Origin: Mycolicibacterium aromaticivorans JS19b1 = JCM 16368
GTDB taxonomy: Bacteria; Actinomycetota; Actinomycetes; Mycobacteriales; Mycobacteriaceae
Direction: 5' to 3'
Length of the DNA: 64,000 nucleotides
NCBI RefSeq assembly: GCF_000559085.1
Contig: NZ_JALN02000001.1
Coordinates: 1,178,001-1,242,000, forward strand
Shown: positions 1 through 11,959 of the stretch, piece after piece
How the letters are laid out: the number at the start of each line of letters is the position of its first letter
How positions within the stretch are numbered: the first letter of the stretch is position 1
The notes under the pieces: generated by a model
Seen by the model: the letters and a program-made list of their open reading frames with translations, nothing else
Database searches by the model: none
Told to the model about the DNA's origin: nothing
Translations under genes and position numbers: made by a program

Positions 1-1001
1 ACCACGTCACCGGCTGCGCAGGCAACACCGGCGACTGTGCGTGGCCCGGTGAGCCTGCGCAGGACGATCGGCACTGTCGGGTGGATGCGCAGGGTTTCCT
101 GGATCACCGCGGCGAGGTAGGGCAGGGTGGCCAACTCAGCCGGTGTGTCGACGGTGGCGAGCTCGTCGAGCACGCGAGTGCGGACACGGTCGTCGCGGTG
201 GATGTGGTGCAGCGCCCACGCCAGCGACGTGGAGCTGGTTTCGTGGCCGGCGGCCAACATCGTCCGCAGCTGGTCGCGCAGCATCTCGTCGGTCAAGCTG
301 TTGCCCTCGTCATCGGTGGCGTCGAGAATCGACGCCAGTACATCGCCCCCGCGCTCACCGCTGCGTCGTCGTTCGTCGATCTGCTCGGACAACAAATCAT
401 CGAGTTGGGTTCGGAAGGCGACCAGCCGGGCCCACGGGCCGTGCCCCGCGATATTGCGGCGCAGCCAAGGCACCAGCATCAGCGCCGCGCCACCGGATCG
501 GAGCAACTGCGTTGTCACTGAGGAGAACTGGCGACGGCGGGCATCATCGGTGACCCCGAACACCACCCGGATCACCACGTCCAGGGTGATCGATTGCGCG
601 GCGCGGCCCACCAACAGCTGATCGCCCGGCCGCAACGCCGCGATCTCCCCCTCCGTGGCCTCGGCGATCAGATCGAGATAGTCACGCATGAGCTCGCCGC
701 GAAACGGTGGCGCCAGGACACTTCGAGCCCGGCGATGCGCCTCCCCGGAGAGCAAGATCAGCGAATTGTTGCCGACGACCGGCTCGATCGGGTTGGGCAA
801 CGGCGCCCTGCACAGTGCCCCCGGCAGGGTGAGAACGTCGCGCGCCCCGTCCATGGTGGTGAAGAACAACACCTCACCCAGTCCGGGAAACAGCACCGTG
901 AACGGTGCGCGGTCGGCGGCGTGGCGCCGGAAGAAACCCTCCGGGTCGATGCCGGCCCACGCCGCGCGCCCGAGTGCGGCCGCTGTCTGCAGCAGACTCA
1001 C
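1..1001 (-). CDS. Cytochrome P450, C-terminus beyond window
   Basis: Haem-thiolate monooxygenase and last visible gene of the minus-strand biosynthetic cluster. Reading from a GTG at 1001 gives 333 residues with no stop before the edge. P450 landmarks are in order: C-helix HxxxR (H89, R93), I-helix AGHETSS (251-257) with the acid-alcohol pair, and K-helix ExxR (E302-R305). The Cys-loop FxxGxxxC would lie outside the window, so the haem ligand cannot be checked. The GTG overlaps the methyltransferase stop by four bases (GTGA), which fixes the start and implies coupling. It probably hydroxylates or otherwise tailors the cluster product; the substrate is unknown. Confidence 0.9.
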   Translation of the reverse strand, partial: MSLLQTAAALGRAAWAGIDPEGFFRRHAADRAPFTVLFPGLGEVLFFTTMDGARDVLTLPGALCRAPLPNPIEPVVGNNSLILLSGEAHRRARSVLAPPFRGELMRDYLDLIAEATEGEIAALRPGDQLLVGRAAQSITLDVVIRVVFGVTDDARRRQFSSVTTQLLRSGGAALMLVPWLRRNIAGHGPWARLVAFRTQLDDLLSEQIDERRRSGERGGDVLASILDATDDEGNSLTDEMLRDQLRTMLAAGHETSSTSLAWALHHIHRDDRVRTRVLDELATVDTPAELATLPYLAAVIQETLRIHPTVPIVLRRLTGPRTVAGVACAAGDV

Positions 1002-1738
1002 GGCAGCCTCGTGCGCCGTGCCAGCACAATGTGATTGCGACCAAGGCGGCTGAACTCGACGGTGATGGCAGGATCGGCGTGGGCGGCCAACGCACGGAAT
1101 GCCGAAGGGCTGTACGCACGCAACGAACTGATCAGACCGTCGTGGGCGAACGGCAGCAGCACGAAGGGCAGCATCGACGCCAGCCGCAGGAGGTGCACGG
1201 GAGCCGACGGCCGATACAGATCGCAGATCAGCAGCGTGTCCGCGACGCGGGTTCCCTCCGCCAGCACGCGCGCGGCCTGAACCGGCGGCAGATGATGAAA
1301 TGACAGGGCGAACAACGCGAGATCGTAGGACCGGTCGGGGGCGTCGATATCGGTGGCGTCGACGCGGCGGACAACCGCTCTCGGATCACTGCCGAGATCG
1401 CCTGCGGCGATGGTGGCCACCGATACCGGATCGACGTCGGTCACCGTGACGCGCGCGTCGGGGCGCAAAGCCAGCACTGCTCGCGACAGCGCCCCGTGAC
1501 CTGCCCCCAACTCCAGGATTCTCGGCTCGATGATGTTCGCGACGAGCGGCAGCGCCCTGGCAGCAAGGTGCTCGTGATCCCGCAGGATCCGGCCCATCCA
1601 GTCCAGAGACCACATCACCTGCCGCTTGACGCGATCGTTGACATCGTCGCGGTCCAGGTATTCCAGCCGGCCGGTCTGCAGACGCCGGTCCAACCAGGAG
1701 GCGTCGAATCCGGCGCGGGGCATGGTCGCGATATCCAC
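998..1738 (-). CDS. Class I SAM-dependent methyltransferase
   Basis: About 246 residues with a Rossmann SAM-binding motif I (ELGAGHG, roughly residues 75-81) and an acidic end of strand beta-2 (TDVDP), typical of small-molecule methyltransferases. A GTG at 1738 is preferred because AGGAGA lies five bases upstream and 15 bases separate it from the previous stop; an ATG at 1723 is the alternative. It overlaps the P450 by four bases. The second methyltransferase in a row in the cluster, it probably acts on an O, N or C position of the same product. The substrate cannot be read from the sequence. Confidence 0.82.
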   Translation of the reverse strand: MDIATMPRAGFDASWLDRRLQTGRLEYLDRDDVNDRVKRQVMWSLDWMGRILRDHEHLAARALPLVANIIEPRILELGAGHGALSRAVLALRPDARVTVTDVDPVSVATIAAGDLGSDPRAVVRRVDATDIDAPDRSYDLALFALSFHHLPPVQAARVLAEGTRVADTLLICDLYRPSAPVHLLRLASMLPFVLLPFAHDGLISSLRAYSPSAFRALAAHADPAITVEFSRLGRNHIVLARRTRLP

Positions 1739-1752
1739 CTGAGTCTCCTCGA

Positions 1753-2859
1753 CTAGCCGGAAAGCGCGTCGTCGACGACGGCCTCCACCACGCACAGCGG
1801 TGAGGCAGTCGGAACCACCCGCGTCATCCGGAACCCTGCGTGCGCCAACAACGTTCGGTACTCCTCGGCGGTACGTTCGCGGGATCCCAGGTTCAGCAGC
1901 ATCTCCAGATCCACCCAGTTTTCCGGCCCGTCACGCCCGTTGTCGCGGACGACCATCTCGACCAGCAGCACAGTGGTCCCCGGGACGGCCGCTGAACGGA
2001 CATTGCGCAGGATGTGCAACGCCTTGTCGTCGGCCCAGTCGTGAATGATGTTCTTCAGCAGATACGCATCGCCGCCGCCAGGCACATGGTCGAAGAACGA
2101 GCCCTCGACGATCTGTACCCGGTCGGCGACACCGTTGGCGCGCAACAACTCCGGCGCACCCGCGACGACCCGGGGCACATCGTAGAGAACGCCTCGCGAC
2201 CGCTGCGCCCTCACCAGGATGGCGGCCAGCATCGCACCCTGTCCCCCGCCGACGTCGACGATCGTGCGGTGTGCGGCGAAATCGTAGCTGGCCACCACGA
2301 CAGCCAGCGTCATCTGGGCGAGGCTGGTCATGGTCTGATCGAAAAGCTTGGCATGCTCGGGTATTTCGATGAGGTAGTCGAAACCTTCCATACCTCTCAG
2401 GGCGGGGACGATCGACTCGCCGGTTCGCACCGAGTCGGTCAGCAGTGTCCAGCGTTCACGCTGCTCTTGCGAGCCTTGGAACATCGCCGCACCTCTCAGC
2501 GAGATCGCCGCGTCCGAGCGAAGGGTGTCGGCAAGGGAATTCAGTGCGTACCGGCCATCGCGGCGGCGCCGGAAGATGCCCCGCCCGATCAGTGCCCGCA
2601 TCAGCCGCCGCAGCGCATCGGGGTCCGCGCGCACCCGCGCGGCAAGCTCGTCGATCGGCAGCGGTCCGTCCGCCAGCGCGTCGGCGACGCCCAGTTGCGC
2701 AGCCGTGGTGATCGCCTGCGCAGGCCAGCCCGACACCACCAACTCCATCATCGCCATCGGTGCGGGCAGCATCCGCTGATGGAGCAACAGCAGGTGATGG
2801 CGCAGCCACTCGACGGCGCGCGCCAGTCCGGCCGGCGGCACCATGACGTTCCTAGGCAT
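1753..2859 (-). CDS. O-methyltransferase, family 2 (plant OMT/CrtF type)
   Basis: 368 residues with the two-part build of methyltransferase family 2. The N-terminal dimerisation/winged-helix half (about 30-115) contains QAITTAAQLGVADAL. The C-terminal SAM fold has DVGGGQG motif I, VLYDVPRVV and the family-typical KNIIHDWADDKALHIL block; its His-Asp region normally carries the general-base histidine. Enzymes of this type methylate hydroxyls of phenolic or polyketide compounds. The start overlaps the MMPL exporter stop by eight bases. Two adjacent, dissimilar methyltransferases suggest a product methylated at two positions. Confidence 0.88.
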   Translation of the reverse strand: MPRNVMVPPAGLARAVEWLRHHLLLLHQRMLPAPMAMMELVVSGWPAQAITTAAQLGVADALADGPLPIDELAARVRADPDALRRLMRALIGRGIFRRRRDGRYALNSLADTLRSDAAISLRGAAMFQGSQEQRERWTLLTDSVRTGESIVPALRGMEGFDYLIEIPEHAKLFDQTMTSLAQMTLAVVVASYDFAAHRTIVDVGGGQGAMLAAILVRAQRSRGVLYDVPRVVAGAPELLRANGVADRVQIVEGSFFDHVPGGGDAYLLKNIIHDWADDKALHILRNVRSAAVPGTTVLLVEMVVRDNGRDGPENWVDLEMLLNLGSRERTAEEYRTLLAHAGFRMTRVVPTASPLCVVEAVVDDALSG

Positions 2860-5086
2860 GCGAGGCCTCCCTGATCCCGAACCGATCGTGTAAGCGCGCC
2901 AGAGGCTTTGGCGCCCACCAGTTGAACCGGCCCATCACGTGCATGAAGGCGGGTACGAGCAGGACACGCACCAGCGTGGCGTCGGCGAGGATCGCCAGCG
3001 TCAGGCCGACGCCAAGCATGCGCAGGAAGGACACCTGAGCCCCCGAGAGCGCCGCGAACGTAATGGCCATGATCAGAGCCGCGGCCGTGATCACCCGCGC
3101 GGTGTGGGCGAGTCCCAGCGCGACGCTCCTGTCGTTGTCGGCGGCGGTCTTGGCGCTCGCCAGCCAGAACTCGCGGATGCGCGACACCAGGAACACCTCG
3201 TAGTCCATCGAGAGGCCGAAGGCGATGCAGAACAACAATACCGGGATGCTGATCGCCAGGGTGCCCGTCGACGTCGTACCCAAAGCATCGAGGTTGCCGT
3301 CCTGGAATATCCACACCAGCGCACCGAACGCGGCGGTCAACGACAAGACGTTGAGAATCAACGCCTTCAGCGGTACCACGACACTGCCGGTCATCAAAAA
3401 CAGGAGCACGAACGTGATTACGGCGATGATCGCCAGAACCACGCCCAACCGCGAGGCGATGGCGCTGGCGGTATCACGGTTGACCTGGGGGGTCCCGCCG
3501 ATCAACACCCGGTGACCGGCCGGGGTGGGAACCGCGTGCAGCTGATCGAGCAGCGTCTCGGATGCCTGGGAGTACAGGGGTGTAGTGCTGGTGACGGTGA
3601 GGAACGCGCTGTTGTTCCTGATCGCGGTCGCCGCCGTCGGCGGACCCACGGATGCGCCGCCGACGAACGTCACGCCGGGCGAGGAGACAGAGGACACGCC
3701 TGATACCCGGGACAGCTCAGCGGCATAACCGTCGAGCTGTGCGGGGGTGACGCCTCCGAGATCCGGTATGACGACGGTCAGATTCTTGGCCAGGTCCGCG
3801 GCGAACTGTGTGCGCAACTGGTCGCCGACCAGCTGCGCCGAACTCGACGTCGGAAGGACACGGTCGTCGGGCACTCCCCATCGGACGCCGAGGAACGGCG
3901 CGCCGAGCAAGGTCAGCAGCGCCACGATGGCCAGACCGATTGGCACCGCCTTGCGCATGGAGAACATCGCCAGCCGATACCAGGGGCCGTCCTCCACCGG
4001 CCGGACAGCCGCGACGGGGCGTCGCAGCCACTTGCGCAGGTCCAGCGAGTCGAGGCGATCACCGAGCAATACGATGGCCGAAGGAGCCACGAAAATCGCT
4101 GCGAGAGAAGCGAATACAACGACGGCCACACCCGCGTAGCCGAAGGACTTCAGGGTGTAGATCGGGAACAGCACCATCGCCGACATCGACAGCGCGACGG
4201 TCATCGCGGAGAACAACACCGTCCGACCGGCGGACGTCATGGTGCGGATCAGGGCGCGGTCACGGCTGGCACCGCCTGCCAGTTCGTCGCGGAACCGGCT
4301 CAGCAGCAGCAGCGTGTAGTCGATCGCCAGCGCCAGCCCAAGGGCGGCAGCGAGATTGAGGGCGAAGATCGATACGTCCGTGACGAAGGTGATCGCATGC
4401 AGCACGGCCATCGCGCCGAAGATCGCTACGGCGCCCACCGCCAGGGGCAGCGACGCCGCGACCAGACCGCCGAACACCCACACCAGCACCAGGAAACTCA
4501 GCGGAATCGCAACGCCTTCCATGACTTTCAGGTCTTTTTCGCTCTGCTGGTTGATCTCCAGCATCATGGTCGATTCGCCGCCGGCCCGCACGGTCACGTC
4601 GTCACGGTTGTGCACCACCGTGCTGATCAGTGCCCCGGCATTCTTCGGCGCGCTGTTGTCACCGCCGGTGATGCCGGCCACGATGACGCCGATCGTGCCG
4701 TCCTTGCTGATCAGCGAGGTCGCTGCCGACGGCGGCGCGGTCCAGGGCGAGGTGACCGTCGCAACCGTCGGCGACTGAGTCAGTGTCCGCACGATGTCGG
4801 TGCCCACTGTGCGCGCAGCCGCTGAATCGACCCCATCGGGTGAACTGACCGTGATCAGCAGCGGCATGTCACCCTGGCCGAAAGTGCTGGCCAACAGAGC
4901 TTTCACCTGTGACGATTGGGCACCGGGATCGGTGAGACCGCCCGCGGAGAGCCGGCCCGCCACCGGAATGCCGAATGCCGCCGCACCGGCGACGACGAGC
5001 AGCGCGAGCGCGATCATCCGTCGGGGAGCACGCATCGCAAGCCGCGCGATCCCGGCTAACACGGCGACAGGGTCCCCGCCAGCCAT
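2852..5086 (-). CDS. MMPL/RND-family membrane exporter
   Basis: About 744 residues. The two-fold RND layout is visible: TM1, a soluble loop of roughly 150 residues, a TM2-6 bundle with LGLALAIDYTLLLLSRFRDE, then TM7, a second loop and TM8-12 with FGLSMDYEVFLVSRIREFW. Those two Asp-Tyr motifs (TM4 and TM10) are the proton-relay signature of MMPL proteins. It lacks the long C-terminal extension of large mycobacterial MmpLs and resembles the short antibiotic-export type. The ATG at 5086 overlaps the ligase by 31 bases; a GTG at 5062 overlaps by seven and is also plausible. It probably exports the cluster product. Confidence 0.88.
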   Translation of the reverse strand: MAGGDPVAVLAGIARLAMRAPRRMIALALLVVAGAAAFGIPVAGRLSAGGLTDPGAQSSQVKALLASTFGQGDMPLLITVSSPDGVDSAAARTVGTDIVRTLTQSPTVATVTSPWTAPPSAATSLISKDGTIGVIVAGITGGDNSAPKNAGALISTVVHNRDDVTVRAGGESTMMLEINQQSEKDLKVMEGVAIPLSFLVLVWVFGGLVAASLPLAVGAVAIFGAMAVLHAITFVTDVSIFALNLAAALGLALAIDYTLLLLSRFRDELAGGASRDRALIRTMTSAGRTVLFSAMTVALSMSAMVLFPIYTLKSFGYAGVAVVVFASLAAIFVAPSAIVLLGDRLDSLDLRKWLRRPVAAVRPVEDGPWYRLAMFSMRKAVPIGLAIVALLTLLGAPFLGVRWGVPDDRVLPTSSSAQLVGDQLRTQFAADLAKNLTVVIPDLGGVTPAQLDGYAAELSRVSGVSSVSSPGVTFVGGASVGPPTAATAIRNNSAFLTVTSTTPLYSQASETLLDQLHAVPTPAGHRVLIGGTPQVNRDTASAIASRLGVVLAIIAVITFVLLFLMTGSVVVPLKALILNVLSLTAAFGALVWIFQDGNLDALGTTSTGTLAISIPVLLFCIAFGLSMDYEVFLVSRIREFWLASAKTAADNDRSVALGLAHTARVITAAALIMAITFAALSGAQVSFLRMLGVGLTLAILADATLVRVLLVPAFMHVMGRFNWWAPKPLARLHDRFGIREASHA

Positions 5087-6666
5087 TGGGTGCGCGCTTC
5101 GATGCGTCGCATCTTCCCGCTCGACGTCCGTGGCAGGGTGCCCGGCGCCAGCAGCTCGACGTGTCCGACGGCGATGCCGGTGTGCTCCAGCACCCGGGCC
5201 GCCACATCGCTCGCCAGATCCTCGGGTGCGTCCGCGGTGGTCTCGACGAGCATCGCCAGGGCCTCGTCCTGCGTGTCGGGCGGTACGTACCCCACCGCGA
5301 CCGCACATCCGGCGCGGACGCCGGCCAGCCCATCAAGGGCGGCCTCGAAATCCTGCGGTGCATGGTTGGCGCCGCGGATGATCACGGTCTCCTTGGTGCG
5401 GCCGCACACGAAAAGCTCACCGTCGTGGACTAATCCGACGTCGCCGCAGTCCAGCCAGCCGTCCGACAGCACCTGCGCGGTGAGGTCGGCACGGCCGAAG
5501 TATCCGGTCATCACGCTGGGTCCACGAACGAAGATGTGCCCAACCTCGCCGTCGGGCAGTCGCCGGGAGTCGTCGTCGCGGATCTCCACCTCGACGCCGG
5601 CCAGGGGACGTCCGGTGCTCACCAGTTCCCGGTCGCCGAGCCGGTGCACGCCGAACATGGTGCCCGCCGGCGTGAACGTGACCGCCAGCGACGCCTCGGC
5701 CAGTCCGTAGACCGGTGTGAACGCCCGCGCGTCGAACCCCCACCGCTCGAACCGCTCACTGAATCGGCGCTGCACGTCGGCGCTGGTCAACTCGGCGCCG
5801 TTCAGACACAGTCGCCACGAGCTCAGGTCGACACCGTCGAGTTCGTCGTCGCGGATCCGCTTGAGGCACAGCCCGAACGCGAAGTTCGGTGCAGCGGTGA
5901 CCGTTCCGCGGTGCCGTGAGATCGCGCGCAACCATGCCGCGGGGACGGCCAGGAACAGCTCGGGCGGCAGCAGTACCAAGGGCCGCGGAAGATAGAACGC
6001 GCTCAGCAGGTTCCCGATCAGTCCCATGTCGTGATAGAGCGGCAGCCAGGTGACACCGACCTGTTCGGGCATGCCCGCCGCCGCGAAGTAGTCCGCGATC
6101 GCGGCGAGGTTGGCCAACAGGTTGCGGTGGCTCAGTGCGACGGGTTTCGGGTCATGGGTGGTGCCGGAGGAGAACTGGATCAGTGCAATGTCGTCGGCGG
6201 ACGCATCGATGTCACGGCGGCTCACCCCGTCGAGTTCGGCTGCCGTTCGGCACTTCGCCCCCACCGCTTCGAGCAGCGGACGAATGCGATCCTCGGTGAG
6301 CACCAGGACCGCGTCGACCGCCTGCAGCATCGCGGCGGTGCGATCGCGGTACTCGTCGAGCTTGCCCAGCCGCACCGGCGGGTACAGCGGTACCGGGATG
6401 GCGCCCGCGTAGAGGGCACCAAAGAAGCAGGCGACGAATTCCGGGCCGGTCGGCAGTACCAGTGCAACCCGCTGACCGGGCTCAACGCCGTTGTCGTGCA
6501 GGCCCGCCGCCACCGAACGCGCCCGCCGGGCGATATCGGCCATCGGCACGTCGGTGTCGACCTCGTTACGGTCGACAAAGATCAAATTCTTGTCGCGCAG
6601 TGCTGCCGCGTCGAGCATCTCGGTGAGAGTCTCGAACTTGGGCCGGACCGCCGGGGTGCTGTTCAC
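5056..6666 (-). CDS. Fatty acyl-AMP ligase (FAAL/FadD type)
   Basis: 536-residue member of the ANL adenylating superfamily. The order SSGTT phosphate loop, YGLAEAS motif, GDVG hinge region and C-terminal PRTSSGKMRR (catalytic Lys) is intact. The YGLAEASLAVTF stretch and the context (ACP directly upstream, no CoA enzyme) favour a FAAL that makes acyl-adenylate and loads an ACP rather than CoA. The phosphate loop is divergent: SSGTTHDPKP instead of the usual SSG(S/T)TGxPKG. The GTG start overlaps the ACP stop by four bases (GTGA). It would supply the fatty acyl starter of the pathway. Confidence 0.88.
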   Translation of the reverse strand: MNSTPAVRPKFETLTEMLDAAALRDKNLIFVDRNEVDTDVPMADIARRARSVAAGLHDNGVEPGQRVALVLPTGPEFVACFFGALYAGAIPVPLYPPVRLGKLDEYRDRTAAMLQAVDAVLVLTEDRIRPLLEAVGAKCRTAAELDGVSRRDIDASADDIALIQFSSGTTHDPKPVALSHRNLLANLAAIADYFAAAGMPEQVGVTWLPLYHDMGLIGNLLSAFYLPRPLVLLPPELFLAVPAAWLRAISRHRGTVTAAPNFAFGLCLKRIRDDELDGVDLSSWRLCLNGAELTSADVQRRFSERFERWGFDARAFTPVYGLAEASLAVTFTPAGTMFGVHRLGDRELVSTGRPLAGVEVEIRDDDSRRLPDGEVGHIFVRGPSVMTGYFGRADLTAQVLSDGWLDCGDVGLVHDGELFVCGRTKETVIIRGANHAPQDFEAALDGLAGVRAGCAVAVGYVPPDTQDEALAMLVETTADAPEDLASDVAARVLEHTGIAVGHVELLAPGTLPRTSSGKMRRIEARTQWLAGTLSPC

Positions 6667-6932
6667 GACCGTTCCTGGATGCGACGCTGCACCAGCCGGG
6701 CCAAGTCGCCGACGGTGCGCAAGTCGTCACTGTCCTCAGCGTCCAGCTCGATGTCGTAGCGGGCTTCGATTCGGAACACCAGCGACAACACCCGGGCCGA
6801 GTCCATGCCCGCGTCCTGGAGTCCCGAGTCAGCGGTAAGGGCTGTGGCGCACTCGGTTTCGGCCTGGATCATGCCGATGATGTCGTCGACTACGGTGTTC
6901 ATCGACGTCGGTTGGCCGTCGGCTGCAGTCAT
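6663..6932 (-). CDS. Acyl carrier protein
   Basis: Small (89-residue) acidic protein with the phosphopantetheine attachment context AGMDSARVLSL, in which the Ser of Asp-Ser is the modified residue, followed by a conserved helix (FRIEARYDIELD) and a last helix (TVGDLARLVQ). The ATG at 6932 overlaps the KAS III-like stop by four bases (ATGA); an internal ATG at 6902 would give 79 residues. It lies between the acyl-AMP ligase and the ketosynthase-like gene, so it is the obvious shuttle carrying the activated acyl chain between them. Confidence 0.9.
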   Translation of the reverse strand: MTAADGQPTSMNTVVDDIIGMIQAETECATALTADSGLQDAGMDSARVLSLVFRIEARYDIELDAEDSDDLRTVGDLARLVQRRIQERS

Positions 6933-7954
6933 GTGCGGCTTCCGCCCCATTGGATGGCGGCGGCGCCTGCGAAGTCCCCGGCGTGCGCGAACCCGGCCAT
7001 CATCACGATGTCGCCGGCACCGATCTGGCCGTCGAGGACTGCCGCCTCCAGGTTCACCGGGATGGCGACGGCGAACAGGTTGCCGCACTCCTGGAATGTG
7101 TCGCGATGCCGATCAGGCGAAATCCCCAGTGCCTCATTCCAGTTCCGCAACAGCAGCCGGTTCGGTTGATTGGTGACCAGCAGGTCGAGATCGACCGGCT
7201 TGACCCCGATCCGGTCGCACACCGCGCGCACCACCTGGGGTACCTGCCGGTTGCCGCGGGCAAGAACCTTGATGATCTTGCCTTCGTTGAACCCGACGTA
7301 GCCCTGACCGGGCCCGGCCTCCCACCAGCGCCGCGCGGGATCGGCGGCCAACGTCATGTCGGTCGCGTTCTCGCCGTAGTAGCGGCATTCGATGTCGAGG
7401 ACCGGTGAACTGTCCGACACGGTGACCAACCCGACCGCCGCGCCGTCGCCGGGCACCGACGCCTGGGCGAGCTTACGCACCTGCTCCTGCTCGAAGATCT
7501 TGCCTGCGGCGTTCTGCGCGACCGCGATCAGCGCGGTCCGCCCGGCACCGCTCGCCAGCAGCTGGCGCGCGAGCTTGAGCATCAACACAAACGCCGCGCA
7601 GCCACCGTTGTGGACGTCGATGATCCACTCGGGATTGATGCCCAGCCGCTTGGCGACTTCGCCGCCGGCGCCGAGGATCGGCAGATCCGGCAGCTGCGAA
7701 TGGGTCAGCAGCACATCGACGTCGTCGAGCACCGCTGGCCCGTGCCGGTCGATCAGTGCACCGACGGCACGCTGGATCATGTCGACGTTGGACTCGTCGT
7801 CGGCGGCATGGTGACGGAAGTTCGGCGGCCGGAACATGGGGTTGTCCCGCATGTCGTCGTCACCGCTTAATTGGGTGTACCACTCTGCGGAAACCCGGTT
7901 TTCGGGCAGATAGGTGGCGACATCGATCAGGCTGACGGTGGGCTGGCTCATCAT
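6929..7954 (-). CDS. KAS III (FabH)-like thiolase-fold enzyme with altered catalytic triad
   Basis: 341 residues with thiolase fold. The nucleophile region is VHNGGCAAFVLML (Cys conserved) and the last catalytic region is ECGNLFAVAIPV (Asn conserved). Where FabH proteins have HQAN, this protein reads NQPN, so the catalytic His appears to be Asn. It may therefore be an acyltransferase or a non-decarboxylative condensing enzyme rather than a classical malonyl-ACP condensing enzyme; this is inference. The ATG at 7954 overlaps the upstream stop (ATGA). It presumably takes an acyl group from, or gives it to, the adjacent ACP. Confidence 0.85.
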   Translation of the reverse strand: MMSQPTVSLIDVATYLPENRVSAEWYTQLSGDDDMRDNPMFRPPNFRHHAADDESNVDMIQRAVGALIDRHGPAVLDDVDVLLTHSQLPDLPILGAGGEVAKRLGINPEWIIDVHNGGCAAFVLMLKLARQLLASGAGRTALIAVAQNAAGKIFEQEQVRKLAQASVPGDGAAVGLVTVSDSSPVLDIECRYYGENATDMTLAADPARRWWEAGPGQGYVGFNEGKIIKVLARGNRQVPQVVRAVCDRIGVKPVDLDLLVTNQPNRLLLRNWNEALGISPDRHRDTFQECGNLFAVAIPVNLEAAVLDGQIGAGDIVMMAGFAHAGDFAGAAAIQWGGSRT

Positions 7955-8634
7955 TCGCGCATCCAATCCGGGGTGATAGGCAAGCCGTTACGGTGGCGGT
8001 ATTCGGCGATCGCCTTGAGATTCTTCAACTCCAGAAGGTGCCCGGCGCCGAACATGTCCCAGAAGTCCCCCACCCAGACCGGCCGCTGCGGCGGGGCGGC
8101 GTCCGGGTACGGGTTCTCGTCGTAGAACGGGTGGTGACAGTTCGTCCACAACACCACCGAACCCGGCTTGTTGAACACCACCTGCGCATCGACCACCCGC
8201 ATCAGGTAGATCATCCACAGGTGCTTGCCCTGATCCCAGGCGCAGTGGTAGTCCACGGTGCGGGCATCCCGGTTGGCCACCGTGCGGGTGTAGATCTCGG
8301 TTTCGGTACCCAGCCGGTCGTAGGCCAGCCAGAGGCCGTCCTCCTCGGTGCGGGTGAATCCCCGCAGACTGTAGGTCCATTCCTCCAGGGACCGGGTGTC
8401 CGCCAGATAGTCGAAGAGTGCGTCGGGCGGGCAGTCGATGTAGTCGTTGACGGTGCAGAACTCGCCGAAGACCTCGTCATGCGGATACACCGCGTGGATC
8501 ATCTCCATCAGCACCGGGGTGGCTTTCTCCCGGGGCGAGGTCTCGATGCGCATCAGCCCCGGGATCGGGTCGGTGCCGCCCCCGATCTGATGATTGTGGT
8601 GTGCGGCGATATCCTCGAGCGCGGGCAGTGTCAT
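7951..8634 (-). CDS. SRPBCC/polyketide cyclase-like protein
   Basis: 227 residues. The central part (about 55-190) reads as a START/SRPBCC helix-grip domain: DYIDCPPDALFDYLADTRSLEEW is the typical beta1-alpha1 segment, followed by alternating strands. No catalytic residues are diagnostic. Members of this superfamily bind hydrophobic ligands and include polyketide aromatases/cyclases. Four-base overlaps with the genes on both sides (ATGA at each end) place it firmly in the operon. It may bind, cyclise or dehydrate the pathway intermediate. It has about 50 extra N-terminal residues before the domain. Confidence 0.72.
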   Translation of the reverse strand: MTLPALEDIAAHHNHQIGGGTDPIPGLMRIETSPREKATPVLMEMIHAVYPHDEVFGEFCTVNDYIDCPPDALFDYLADTRSLEEWTYSLRGFTRTEEDGLWLAYDRLGTETEIYTRTVANRDARTVDYHCAWDQGKHLWMIYLMRVVDAQVVFNKPGSVVLWTNCHHPFYDENPYPDAAPPQRPVWVGDFWDMFGAGHLLELKNLKAIAEYRHRNGLPITPDWMRE

Positions 8635-10325
8635 CGGCGTTCCCTCGAATCTGGCTGGGGCGACCGACCCAGCTGTGTTGTTTCACCCAAAAAGGCTGTG
8701 AAGGGCGGGATTTCGTCCGCCGAGCATTCCACCGACACCACGGACGGGCCGTCGGTGTCGAGCGCTGCTGCGACGGCCACCGCGAGCTCGCCGATATCGG
8801 TGACATCCATCGATGGCAGGGCGGGGAACATGGCCGACAGGCCCGCGCCCAGCCGGCTGGGGCCGAACCGGTTGTAGCTGTATCGGTTGCCGTAGAACAG
8901 CTGTTCGCGGGTGACACACATGGCGTGCGCGTGGTTGTCGAACAACAGGAACGTCACCGGGAGCCGGTAGTTCAGCGCGGTGTGAATCTCCATGCCGTGC
9001 ATGAAGAACGAGCCATCGCCGGCGATGACGACGGTGCGGCGATTCCGGGCGAAAGCCATGCCGATGCCGGCGCCGAAGCTGTAGCCCATGCCGCCCATGC
9101 CGAGGGCGACCAGGAAGCGGCCGTCGCGTCGGGCCGGAAGCCAGTGAATAGCCGCCGCACCGATATTGCCCGCGTCCACGACGATATCGGCATCCTGTGG
9201 CAGCAGCCCATCCACCGCGCGCATCGCGTCGCGGTAGCGAACTCCCGCGCCGGCACGCTCTGGTGGCGTCAGCTCACCGCGGACCCGGCGCGGCGGCGGC
9301 ACCCGACTCTCGGTGCCGGCCAGCGCCGTCGCCAGCTGGGTCAGTGAGCCACGGAGGTCGTGGCTTTCGACGTGCGTACATGGCAGGTAGGGAACCTCGG
9401 CACCGATCGACGCGACCTGGAGGGAACCCAATACCGTCTCCAGACCGCCGCGGGCCATTAGCGGAAGCCGGGTGCCGATGAGCAGGCACAGTGCGCTGTC
9501 GCCCAGTGCCGCAACCACTGTCGGATGACCCATCACCCCGGCGACGCCCAACGACTCGGCCGCGGCGTCCTTCGCGTCGGGCACAGTGGCCACGTTCGCC
9601 CGCAAGACCGCACGAAGCGTCTCCAGTTCGGCCCGGGCGTCGTCGCGGGCGACCTGGTCACCGGCGATGATCGTCACCGGCCCCTCGGTGCTGCGCAGCA
9701 GTTGCATCAGTTCCGTGAGCTCCCCGACCGCCGCTGGCGCGTCAGGATCATCCTGTGCGGGCTCTACCACGGCCTGCTGAATGTCCTTGGGCAACAGCAG
9801 GACCGCCGGCCCGCCGAGGCTGGTCGCTGCCGACACCGCCCGGGGCAGCGCGGTCACGATGTCGTCGGCCGTCACAACCCGTTCGCAGAACACCGATACT
9901 GCCGCGAACAACGCCTCGCCGTGCAGGGCCCCGTTGACGCCGCTGGTGTCCTGGAATGAGCCGAGCCCGTCCGAGGAGGTCGGCGGCTGGCCGATCAAAG
10001 CCAGGACCGGCACCCGGCTGGCGAACGACTCCCCCAGTCCCGGGATCGTGTTGAGGGCACCGCCGCCGGAGGTGGCACACACGACGCCGATACCTGCGCC
10101 GGCCCGGCTGTAGGCATCGGCCATCGCCGCCGCGGAGAACTCGTGTTTGGCCACCACCGCGGTGAGGTCCGAACAGGAGTGGGCGGCATCGTAGAAATCC
10201 TCGATGTTGGCACCGTCCACGCCGAACACATGGCGAACGCCGCGGCGAACGAGGCGCTCGGCGATGTAGTCGACTACTCGCGTGCGCCCATCCCCCGCGC
10301 CGTTGCGTTCAGGGCCGACCGGCAT
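8631..10325 (-). CDS. Thiamine pyrophosphate-dependent enzyme (acetolactate synthase-like)
   Basis: 564 residues with all three TPP-enzyme domains. The N-terminal Pyr domain has FGVDGANIEDF and the activating Glu in KHEFSAAAMADAY. A middle domain spans about 190-330. The C-terminal PP domain carries the cofactor motif GDGSFFMHG ending in FDN. FAD-binding features of true acetolactate synthases are not evident. Such enzymes decarboxylate 2-oxo acids and can transfer the acyl anion to an aldehyde or thioester. As first gene of an operon with acyl-ACP chemistry, it could form an acyloin- or ketone-type carbon-carbon bond; that is inference. Confidence 0.85.
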   Translation of the reverse strand: MPVGPERNGAGDGRTRVVDYIAERLVRRGVRHVFGVDGANIEDFYDAAHSCSDLTAVVAKHEFSAAAMADAYSRAGAGIGVVCATSGGGALNTIPGLGESFASRVPVLALIGQPPTSSDGLGSFQDTSGVNGALHGEALFAAVSVFCERVVTADDIVTALPRAVSAATSLGGPAVLLLPKDIQQAVVEPAQDDPDAPAAVGELTELMQLLRSTEGPVTIIAGDQVARDDARAELETLRAVLRANVATVPDAKDAAAESLGVAGVMGHPTVVAALGDSALCLLIGTRLPLMARGGLETVLGSLQVASIGAEVPYLPCTHVESHDLRGSLTQLATALAGTESRVPPPRRVRGELTPPERAGAGVRYRDAMRAVDGLLPQDADIVVDAGNIGAAAIHWLPARRDGRFLVALGMGGMGYSFGAGIGMAFARNRRTVVIAGDGSFFMHGMEIHTALNYRLPVTFLLFDNHAHAMCVTREQLFYGNRYSYNRFGPSRLGAGLSAMFPALPSMDVTDIGELAVAVAAALDTDGPSVVSVECSADEIPPFTAFLGETTQLGRSPQPDSRERR

Positions 10326-10981: not shown

Positions 10982-11959
10982 TTGACCGCAGGTGTCGATG
11001 ACGCGACTGCGGCCCAAGCAGCGACCGAGACAGAAGCCAGCGAACTTCCGTGCGTCGATATCGACGCGTTCGTGGCAGCCGCCACCTCCGAGCCGCCCGT
11101 CGATCCCCCGGCCCCAGCGGAAGCACCGTTGGGCCGCCAGGTCGCCGACATATTGAGCCGGCCCTTCCGGCGCTTCCTGTCCCGAACCGATTCGTCACTG
11201 CAGACATTGGGCCGGTTCTTCGGCCTCGGCGGGCAAGCCCTCGGCTTCCTCGTCACCGACCTGGTCCGGTTACGCCACCCCTGGCGAGACACCCTCAACC
11301 AAGCCTGGTTCATCATCAGCGTCACGGCGATCCCGGCGCTGTTGGTGTCCATACCGTTCGGCGTGATCGTGGCCGTTCAGGTCGGCAACTTCATCCAGCA
11401 GGTCGGGGCCTCCTCGGTGTCGGGGGCCGCCGGCGGTCTTGGCGTGATCCGGCAGGGCGCACCGATGGTGGCGGCCCTGCTGCTCGGCGGGGCGGCCGGT
11501 TCGGCAGTGGCCACCGATCTCGGCGCCCGCACCATCCGTGAAGAGGTCGACGCGTTGCGGGTGATGGGCGTCGACCCGGTCCAGCGACTGGTCACGCCTC
11601 GCCTCGCCGCGATCGTGTTCGTCGCGCCGGTGCTGTGCGCCTTCATCATCTTCATGGGGCTGGCGGCCGGCTACGCGATCAACGTCGGTTTCCAGTCCGG
11701 CACACCCGGCAGCTACATCGCGTCCTTCGCCTCGTTCGCCAGTGTCAACGACGTCATCGTGGCGATGTTGAAGACCTGGTTGTTCGGTGTGGTCGTGATC
11801 CTGGTGGCCTGCCAGCGCGGTCTGGAAGCCACCGGCGGTGCGCGCGGCGTGGCCGACGCCGTCAACGCGTCAGTGGTCATCGGTGTGGTGGCGGTGTTCG
11901 TCCTCAACCTGATCATCACCCAGGGTGTCTCGATGTCGATGCCCCTGAGGATGGGCTGA
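10982..11959 (+). CDS. YrbE-family permease, first gene of mce operon (YrbEA position)
   Basis: 325 residues; MlaE/YrbE permease of an Mce lipid importer. The core (about 90-320) shows the family hallmarks SIPFGVIVAVQVG, the GAAGSAVATDLGARTIREEVDALRVMG EQ-loop region that contacts the ATPase, and four to five membrane helices. A TTG at 10982 is chosen because AAGGAGGT lies nine to ten bases upstream. The N-terminal extension of about 90 residues, rich in Ala, Pro and Glu, is longer than usual. It would form the inner-membrane channel with the next gene; the ATPase (MceG) is normally encoded elsewhere. Confidence 0.92.
   Translation: MTAGVDDATAAQAATETEASELPCVDIDAFVAAATSEPPVDPPAPAEAPLGRQVADILSRPFRRFLSRTDSSLQTLGRFFGLGGQALGFLVTDLVRLRHPWRDTLNQAWFIISVTAIPALLVSIPFGVIVAVQVGNFIQQVGASSVSGAAGGLGVIRQGAPMVAALLLGGAAGSAVATDLGARTIREEVDALRVMGVDPVQRLVTPRLAAIVFVAPVLCAFIIFMGLAAGYAINVGFQSGTPGSYIASFASFASVNDVIVAMLKTWLFGVVVILVACQRGLEATGGARGVADAVNASVVIGVVAVFVLNLIITQGVSMSMPLRMG

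Follow-up and report, generated by a model that had tools for sequence, protein, structure and literature searches.

A predicted carbazole-type alkaloid operon with its own fatty acyl ligase and acyl carrier protein in Mycolicibacterium aromaticivorans

Streptomyces is known to make natural antioxidants of the carbazole class, tryptophan-derived alkaloids that bear a fatty chain. Described here is an operon that likely directs the synthesis of a compound of this type in Mycolicibacterium aromaticivorans JS19b1 = JCM 16368. It lies within a 64,000-nucleotide stretch of contig NZ_JALN02000001.1 (positions 1,178,001 to 1,242,000; hereafter the window) and reads leftwards from window position 10325.

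The closest described systems include the Streptomyces clusters for carquinostatin (cqs) and neocarazostatin (nzs). In the cqs route, the aminotransferase CqsB7 is followed by the thiamine diphosphate (ThDP)-dependent enzyme CqsB3, which acts on indole-3-pyruvate and pyruvate, by the β-ketoacyl-acyl carrier protein synthase III (KAS III)-like enzyme CqsB1, which performs a decarboxylative condensation with the acyl-loaded acyl carrier protein (ACP) CqsB6, and by the carbazole synthase CqsB2, which forms ring A (PMC7466098). The aminotransferase, ThDP, KAS and CqsB2 steps were shown in vitro or in vivo with Streptomyces enzymes, and roles were assigned to Tyr144, Tyr172, Glu105, His206 and Glu209 of CqsB2 (PMC7466098). 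The chlorinated carbazomycin cluster of S. tubbatahanensis (chlCz) also combines an aminotransferase, a ThDP enzyme, one KAS III, an ACP and an SRPBCC carbazole synthase, with O-methylation and an acyl unit proposed to lack a beta-hydroxy group (PMC10100901). A 1-alkyl-2-methyl carbazole frame is common to the lipocarbazoles, carazostatin and the carbazoquinocins (PMC11350554).

Gene content of the operon and its carbazole-type core

The operon consists of nine genes, and each of CqsB7, CqsB3, CqsB1, CqsB2 and CqsB6 has a counterpart in it or beside it. In order of transcription, followed by the flanking features, these are:

8631..10325, minus strand: ThDP-dependent enzyme (CqsB3/NzsH-like), 564 residues; Pfam TPP_enzyme N, M and C domains, best PDB match BbmA (E 8e-46)
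7951..8634, minus strand: SRPBCC protein, CqsB2/NzsI-like carbazole synthase homologue, 227 residues; PDB match CqsB2
6929..7954, minus strand: KAS III-like condensing enzyme in the CqsB1/NzsJ position, 341 residues from ATG 7954; Pfam ACP_syn_III and ACP_syn_III_C, alignment with FabH
6663..6932, minus strand: ACP, 89 residues; Pfam PP-binding (E 5e-9), Asp-Ser motif in the translation
5056..6666, minus strand: ligase resembling the fatty acyl-AMP ligases (FAALs), 536 residues; Pfam AMP-binding, best PDB match the fatty acyl-adenylate ligase 3pbk (E 3e-85)
2852..5086, minus strand: MMPL-family transporter from ATG 5086, or alternatively from GTG 5062, judged by junction and translation; Pfam MMPL (E 4e-75)
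1753..2859, minus strand: O-methyltransferase with dimerisation domain, 368 residues; Pfam Methyltransf_2 (E 6e-47) and Dimerisation
998..1738, minus strand: second S-adenosylmethionine methyltransferase, about 246 residues from GTG 1738; Pfam Methyltransf_25/12/11
1..1001, minus strand: cytochrome P450, the part in the window (whole gene L007:17697-19001); Pfam p450 (E 3e-27)
L007:16409-17620, plus strand: class I/II aminotransferase, a tenth gene to the left of the window, convergent with the P450 gene
10326..10981: intergenic region from which the operon and an MlaE-permease gene diverge; no SigL-type promoter pattern in the 400 bases upstream of the ThDP gene

A first-pass annotation of the window had proposed nine genes on one strand, coupled by four-base overlaps at most junctions, with no polyketide synthase (PKS) or non-ribosomal peptide synthetase (NRPS). 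All nine open reading frames are present on the minus strand, with Pfam, NCBIfam and PDB assignments in agreement, and no PKS or NRPS domain was found in a Pfam scan of the nine proteins. The overlaps are borne out by the sequence at the ThDP/SRPBCC (8631-8634), SRPBCC/KAS (7951-7954), KAS/ACP (6929-6932), ACP/ligase (6663-6666) and methyltransferase/P450 (998-1001) junctions. The ligase and MMPL genes overlap by 7 to 31 bases, depending on the start chosen, and the MMPL and O-methyltransferase genes by 8 bases, and a gap of 14 bases separates the two methyltransferase genes if the second starts at GTG 1738. The P450 gene is truncated by the left edge of the window and runs a further 303 bases, ending at G000:C1:1177697, to encode 434 residues in all.

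The SRPBCC protein is the key to the assignment. The first-pass annotation had given its fold label correctly and had missed its homology to carbazole synthase: among all PDB sequences, the single match up to E 1 was CqsB2 (6ipv/6ipw, E 7e-48), and no Pfam family was matched at E 0.001. Alignment revealed that Tyr144, Tyr172, His206 and Glu209 of CqsB2 are identical in the SRPBCC protein and that Glu105 is replaced by Asp. The same five letters were present in 63 of 63 SRPBCC homologues from 61 loci, and Asp likewise stands for Glu105 in two Nostoc loci whose KAS has the Cys-His-Asn triad. Since the SRPBCC protein is a CqsB2 homologue, a tricyclic indole alkaloid built from tryptophan, pyruvate and a fatty acid is the most probable product. 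An uncharted lipid pathway with no characterised relative was rejected on the strength of the CqsB2 match. In scytonemin biosynthesis, a ThDP enzyme (ScyA) and a cyclase (ScyC) act on indole-3-pyruvate; a pathway of this type was also rejected, the likeness being a weak ScyC match of the SRPBCC protein at 23 bits against a cut-off of 400. Two of the fetched loci (L034 and L035, from G060 and G185) contain, within 20 kb of the CqsB2-like gene of the usual core, a second such gene that adjoins an O-methyltransferase-like gene.

The active-site residues of the ThDP enzyme are similarly well kept, with the ThDP Glu present in 58 of 60 homologues (the other 2 being gaps) and the Asp of the GDG motif and the Asn in all 60. 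The KAS triad is Cys-Asn-Asn rather than Cys-His-Asn, as it is in all 60 fetched homologues.

Compared with the cqs and nzs clusters, the operon shares side-by-side homologues of CqsB2, the ThDP enzyme and the KAS III-like enzyme, together with an ACP and, beside it, an aminotransferase. Unlike them, it has a FAAL-like ligase, an MMPL protein and two methyltransferases, and its nine proteins include by Pfam no second KAS III (CqsB5/NzsF type), prenyltransferase or isopentenyl diphosphate isomerase. The absence of a second classical KAS III and of a prenyltransferase among these proteins sets the operon apart from the prenylated, 3-hydroxybutyryl-derived cqs/nzs subtype. The chlCz cluster differs in its proposed acetyl unit, and neither an acyl ligase nor an MMPL protein appears in the part of Table 5 of PMC10100901 covered.

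Proposed pathway and competing readings

Judged from homology, the operon is likely to encode a carbazole-type alkaloid pathway that has a fatty acyl ligase and an ACP of its own for loading the side chain. Tryptophan would be converted by an aminotransferase, the convergent gene product being the probable one, to indole-3-pyruvate, which the ThDP enzyme would couple with pyruvate. The FAAL-like ligase would place a fatty acid on the ACP, and the KAS III-like enzyme would join the acyl-ACP and the keto acid in a decarboxylative condensation. Closure and aromatisation of ring A by the CqsB2 homologue would then give a 1-alkyl-2-methyl carbazole bearing one or two oxygens, to be tailored by the two methyltransferases and the P450 and exported by the MMPL protein. 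We infer the ligase-loading, methyltransferase and P450 tailoring, and MMPL export steps, as well as the substrates, the product, its chain length and the role of the ACP.

Transfer from ligase to ACP to KAS, formation of a C-C bond by the ThDP enzyme, two methylations, a P450 oxidation and MMPL export had all been suggested in the first-pass annotation and are compatible with this scheme as inference, the carbazole synthase homologue being what it lacked. Its remark that no mycobacterial pathway with this exact enzyme set was known does not hold in the sense of an unknown logic, because the ThDP, KAS, SRPBCC and ACP genes make up the core set of the carquinostatin and neocarazostatin pathway (PMC7466098) and of the carbazomycin pathway (PMC10100901, Table 5). 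Of the refutation that the first-pass annotation had named, a gene set already assigned to a characterised product, half applies: the core has such a product class, known from other bacteria whose clusters have no ligase or MMPL gene.

A link to a known product comes from Tsukamurella. The lipocarbazoles originate from T. pseudospumae Acta 1857, according to the title of reference 7 in PMC7466098, and T. pseudospumae JCM 13375 has the ThDP-B2-KAS core of the window's clade, with one CqsB2 homologue in its genome. A TrpB-like gene is located ∼4.4 kb from this core, and such a gene is near the core in five of the six loci of the Tsukamurella-like genus g30. In the papers found, no gene cluster is assigned to the lipocarbazoles. 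The machinery for mono-oxygenated carbazoles is called unidentified in PMC7466098, and the window's clade is a candidate for it.

Several observations weigh against the carbazole assignment. The window's ThDP enzyme is 33-35% identical to that of the Streptomyces carbazole-type loci, and its KAS is 26-28% identical to the Streptomyces CqsB1-position enzyme, with Asn for the catalytic His. A KAS tree, whose root serves for drawing only, contains three groups on long branches (the window's clade, the CqsB1-position enzymes and the FabH-like enzymes) and does not join the first two as sisters. The aminotransferase is not of the CqsB7 type, being 29% identical over 173 residues to that of the S. 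eurythermus locus. The lipocarbazole producer strain differs from the sequenced JCM 13375, and no ligase, ACP, MMPL or P450 gene was matched in the 20-kb stretch around the JCM 13375 core. Finally, the loop that follows the YGLAE motif of the window's ligase, where FAALs have their specific insertion, is up to 19 residues shorter than in 3pbk. Of these, the His-to-Asn difference in KAS, together with the tree, is the strongest argument against simply equating the window's pathway with that of Streptomyces, and the reading of the KAS as a plain CqsB1 orthologue was rejected on the absence of the catalytic His and the separation of the three groups. Because the KAS has Asn where His is usual, the carbazole product is put forward as a prediction.

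Cys-His-Asn enzymes are encoded by the gene before CqsB2 in Streptomyces and have counterparts in cyanobacteria and Syntrophus, and Cys-Asn-Asn enzymes were found in the window, other Mycobacteriales, Streptacidiphilus and several metagenome-assembled genomes of other phyla. Among 88 sequences, 70 had Cys-Asn-Asn, 17 had Cys-His-Asn (5 of these from Streptomyces clusters, where they are a second, FabH-like KAS) and 1 had Gly-Asn-Asn; both main types carry the T[HN]QPN / GN[LMV]F signature. The single Gly-Asn-Asn sequence, from M. bohemicum (L124:10567), has Gly for the catalytic Cys and may represent an inactive copy or a sequence error. The KAS from a record titled Acidobacteriaceae (L138) groups with Tsukamurella, possibly as the result of a mis-binned contig.

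It is unlikely, though it would account for some of these differences, that the same chemistry is applied to another aromatic 2-oxo acid, such as phenylpyruvate or 4-hydroxyphenylpyruvate, to give an alkylated aromatic or a quinone lipid instead of a carbazole. The clade-wide Cys-Asn-Asn triad would then reflect a different substrate, the distance of the ThDP enzyme from the carbazole ones would fit, and the aminotransferase scores best against alanine and tyrosine/nicotianamine aminotransferase models, all under their cut-offs. Against this, the CqsB2 catalytic residues are kept, a TrpB-like gene is the neighbour in the Tsukamurella-like loci, and lipocarbazoles occur in a species that carries the core of this clade.

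A lipid product in the sense of the first-pass annotation, taken here as an acyloin or ketone that is not aromatic and for which the SRPBCC protein would do no more than bind lipid, is quite improbable. A FAAL-like ligase, an ACP and an MMPL protein are typical of lipid pathways and KAS plus ThDP chemistry could suffice, but this would leave without a role a cyclase homologue whose catalytic residues persist in every homologue examined, and the core is also found without ligase, ACP or MMPL genes. A literature search for BbmA, the best PDB match of the ThDP enzyme, joined with acyloin returned nothing. That the carbazole core is correctly read and the ligase forms acyl-CoA or has some other function, the KAS taking acyl-CoA or acyl-AcpM from primary metabolism, is very improbable: the shortened FAAL insertion, the majority of fetched core loci being without such a ligase or ACP, and four genomes with an ACP-ligase pair and no core alongside would favor it, but the ACP and ligase genes overlap by four bases and, as set out below, mostly run together with the KAS gene.

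Distribution of the core and of the ligase form

At E <= 0.001, and with the window's genome counted, 132 of the 198 genomes sampled from the genus had a match to the SRPBCC protein; for the family the figure is 154 of 401, from 16 of 31 genera. The 132 take in weak or decayed matches, such as those in G167 (E 5.5e-4), G164, G075, G115 and G089. Sixty 20-kb regions, 40 from the genus and 20 from other genera, were fetched for comparison. These were hand-picked from the match lists, mostly from complete genomes, and are a non-random sample in which genes were called by a simple open reading frame caller, so that gene ends are approximate. With the window included, the SRPBCC gene was present in all 61 loci and the KAS and ThDP genes in 60 each, in the same order, an association beyond chance; L045 has no KAS gene adjoining the SRPBCC gene, and the edge of the locus truncates the ThDP gene of L034. 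A HisC-like aminotransferase was encoded in the cluster region of 46 of the 61 loci, and the HisC-like enzyme of these relatives shares 44% identity over 323 residues with the aminotransferase encoded in the carbazole-type locus of S. eurythermus. A ligase or ACP like those of the window is absent from most of the fetched core loci. Among the best 80 of 497 relatives from named genomes, ranked by likeness to Streptomyces CqsB2, the core was found in Streptomyces, Nostoc, Scytonema, Syntrophus, Streptacidiphilus, Nocardia, Gordonia, Antrihabitans, Segniliparus, Tsukamurella and many mycobacteria.

Joint conservation, which the first-pass annotation had proposed as a check, was found for the core and also for the ligase form. 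The nine-gene set as a whole was rejected as the conserved unit; that unit is the three-gene core, the full set being present in 12 of the 198 genomes, with a broken copy in G155 and a reduced one in G171.

The best NCBIfam model for the ligase is the fatty acyl-AMP ligase PRK09192, at 430.6 bits and below the cut-off of 600, and the FAAL insertion is better kept in four longer aligned sister proteins (585-598 residues) and in P0197. M. tuberculosis offers a parallel in FadD10, an acyl-AMP ligase and FAAL without the insertion that is encoded beside the free-standing ACP Rv0100 and feeds an NRPS. In contrast to the window, no carbazole core accompanies FadD10 and Rv0100.

The ligase was present in 24 of the 198 genomes (E <= 1e-150), and in 20 of these the ligase, ACP and KAS genes form one run; the ACP gene adjoins the ligase gene in the other ligase loci read. 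The window's cluster is carried by 12 of the 24 (window included); within these, G098 has no second methyltransferase gene, G009 shows the MMPL match in two pieces, and G175 starts inside the SRPBCC gene at a contig end. In G155 a cluster of the window's type is broken by a contig end, and G171 keeps ThDP-B2-KAS-ACP-ligase and the aminotransferase and lacks the genes from MMPL to P450. A second form, found in five genomes, has the order ThDP-B2-KAS-ACP-ligase-aminotransferase-FMO (flavin-containing monooxygenase)-MMPL with a divergent P450 gene. It is complete in G109 and G087, no MMPL gene was seen in G063, and G145 and G162 are cut by contig ends; in G109, G087 and G063 the ligase, ACP, core and a HisC-like aminotransferase form one run. 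In G182 the KAS-ACP-ligase genes are ∼15 kb from ThDP-B2, and in G051, G058, G148 and G139 an ACP-ligase pair is present with no core matched in the stretch. Carriers of the ligase form include M. litorale F4 (L103) and Mycolicibacterium sp. CH28 (L160).

A convergent class I/II aminotransferase gene is located beside the cluster in 13 of 13 loci of the window's ligase form, the window included. It lies partly inside the fetched stretch in L021, L024 and L026, and in L023 it is present and the genes from MMPL to P450 are not.

In four loci (L175, L176, L179 and L180) no carbazole core was matched in the stretch, which carries a related ACP-ligase pair and, one gene off, an MMPL gene. These pairs are possibly a donor module, or else part of another lipid pathway.

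The SigL-linked form and the wider setting

Other mycobacteria and Nocardia carry the same core in a different setting, the loci of the genus showing 51-69% (ThDP), 72-82% (SRPBCC) and 61-72% (KAS) identity to the window. This common form differs from the window's in its HisC-like aminotransferase, in its neighbouring sigma, anti-sigma and MarR genes and in its SigL-type promoter, and a ligase or ACP like the window's is absent from it. Its genes usually run secY-adk-map-[extracytoplasmic function sigma]-[zinc-finger anti-sigma]-ThDP-B2-KAS-aminotransferase-MarR, a SigL-like sigma gene being present in 26 of the 40 fetched genus loci; some loci have no MarR gene or have other neighbours (e.g. 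L033 and L048). Judged by comparison with the gene order of M. tuberculosis, the site is the sigL-rslA locus. M. tuberculosis itself presumably lacks the cassette, given the consecutive numbers of sigL (Rv0735), rslA (Rv0736) and Rv0737. Rv0737, a MarR protein, and its homologue in M. smegmatis were reported to bind the promoter of sigL-rslA (PMC13002591), and RslA was reported to release zinc and to bind SigL less well on oxidation (PMC2877774).

The 250 bases upstream of each gene were scanned for the SigL pattern TGAAC-N15-19-CG(T/A), which follows the published consensus; a literature search judged by title and abstract yielded no paper on the SigL promoter. The pattern was present upstream of 24 of 26 ThDP genes and 22 of 26 sigma genes, compared with 48 of 691 other genes of the 40 loci (Fisher p of 6e-24 for ThDP and 2e-20 for sigma genes, the loci being related and the samples not independent). 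In the loci from named genomes, scanned over 400 bases against a background rate measured over 250, it was found upstream of 37 of 37 ThDP genes with a sigma gene in the locus and 10 of 23 without. Sixty of 78 ThDP genes entered this comparison; those dropped scored below 300 bits, lay on the other strand or had less than 150 bases upstream, and include those of Streptomyces, cyanobacteria and T. pseudospumae. These distributions suggest that SigL controls the common form. Within 400 bases upstream of the ThDP gene, the pattern was found in none of eight loci of the window's type, nor in L103 or L160, and SigL control of the window's operon was rejected on this basis.

The sigL site of the window's own genome is empty, with the order secY-adk-map-sigL-rslA-marR and 19 bases between the rslA and marR matches; the window's copy is the sole CqsB2 homologue of that genome and is located away from this site. 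G136 and G004 contain the ligase form and the common form together. A ruined site is visible at L187:7414-10701, where secY-adk-map are followed by fragments of the sigma, ThDP, SRPBCC, KAS and aminotransferase genes, with no rslA or marR match kept there; the SRPBCC match in that genome contains one TGA and three TAG codons.

There is perhaps an even chance that mycobacterial carbazoles form a widespread, undescribed class, in which the SigL/RslA redox switch, known from M. tuberculosis, controls an adjacent antioxidant cassette in many relatives, lost in M. tuberculosis and a ruin in M. leprae. On this reading, the operon in the window would be another version, independent of SigL and equipped with genes of its own for fatty-acid loading, methylation and MMPL export, and its carbazole would resemble a lipid and might reside in the envelope. 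Neither a mycobacterial carbazole nor a FAAL-loaded one was found among the literature matches listed, judged by title and the start of the abstract. If the assignment is correct, mycobacteria would count among the carbazole producers, their side chain supplied by a fatty acyl ligase/ACP route that is undescribed in the papers among those matches, candidate genes would be available for the lipocarbazoles, perhaps also for the machinery behind the mono-oxygenated carbazoles discussed in PMC7466098, and the SigL/RslA redox sigma system would gain a concrete biosynthetic target.

Divergent from the carbazole-type operon, an operon led by an MlaE-type permease gene extends from window position 10982 onwards on the plus strand (L008:12982 onwards). 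The family of its second gene is represented in the window and in six of the eight other ligase-form loci first fetched, L029 and L030 being those without it. The MlaE-type operon could import the fatty acid used by the ligase.

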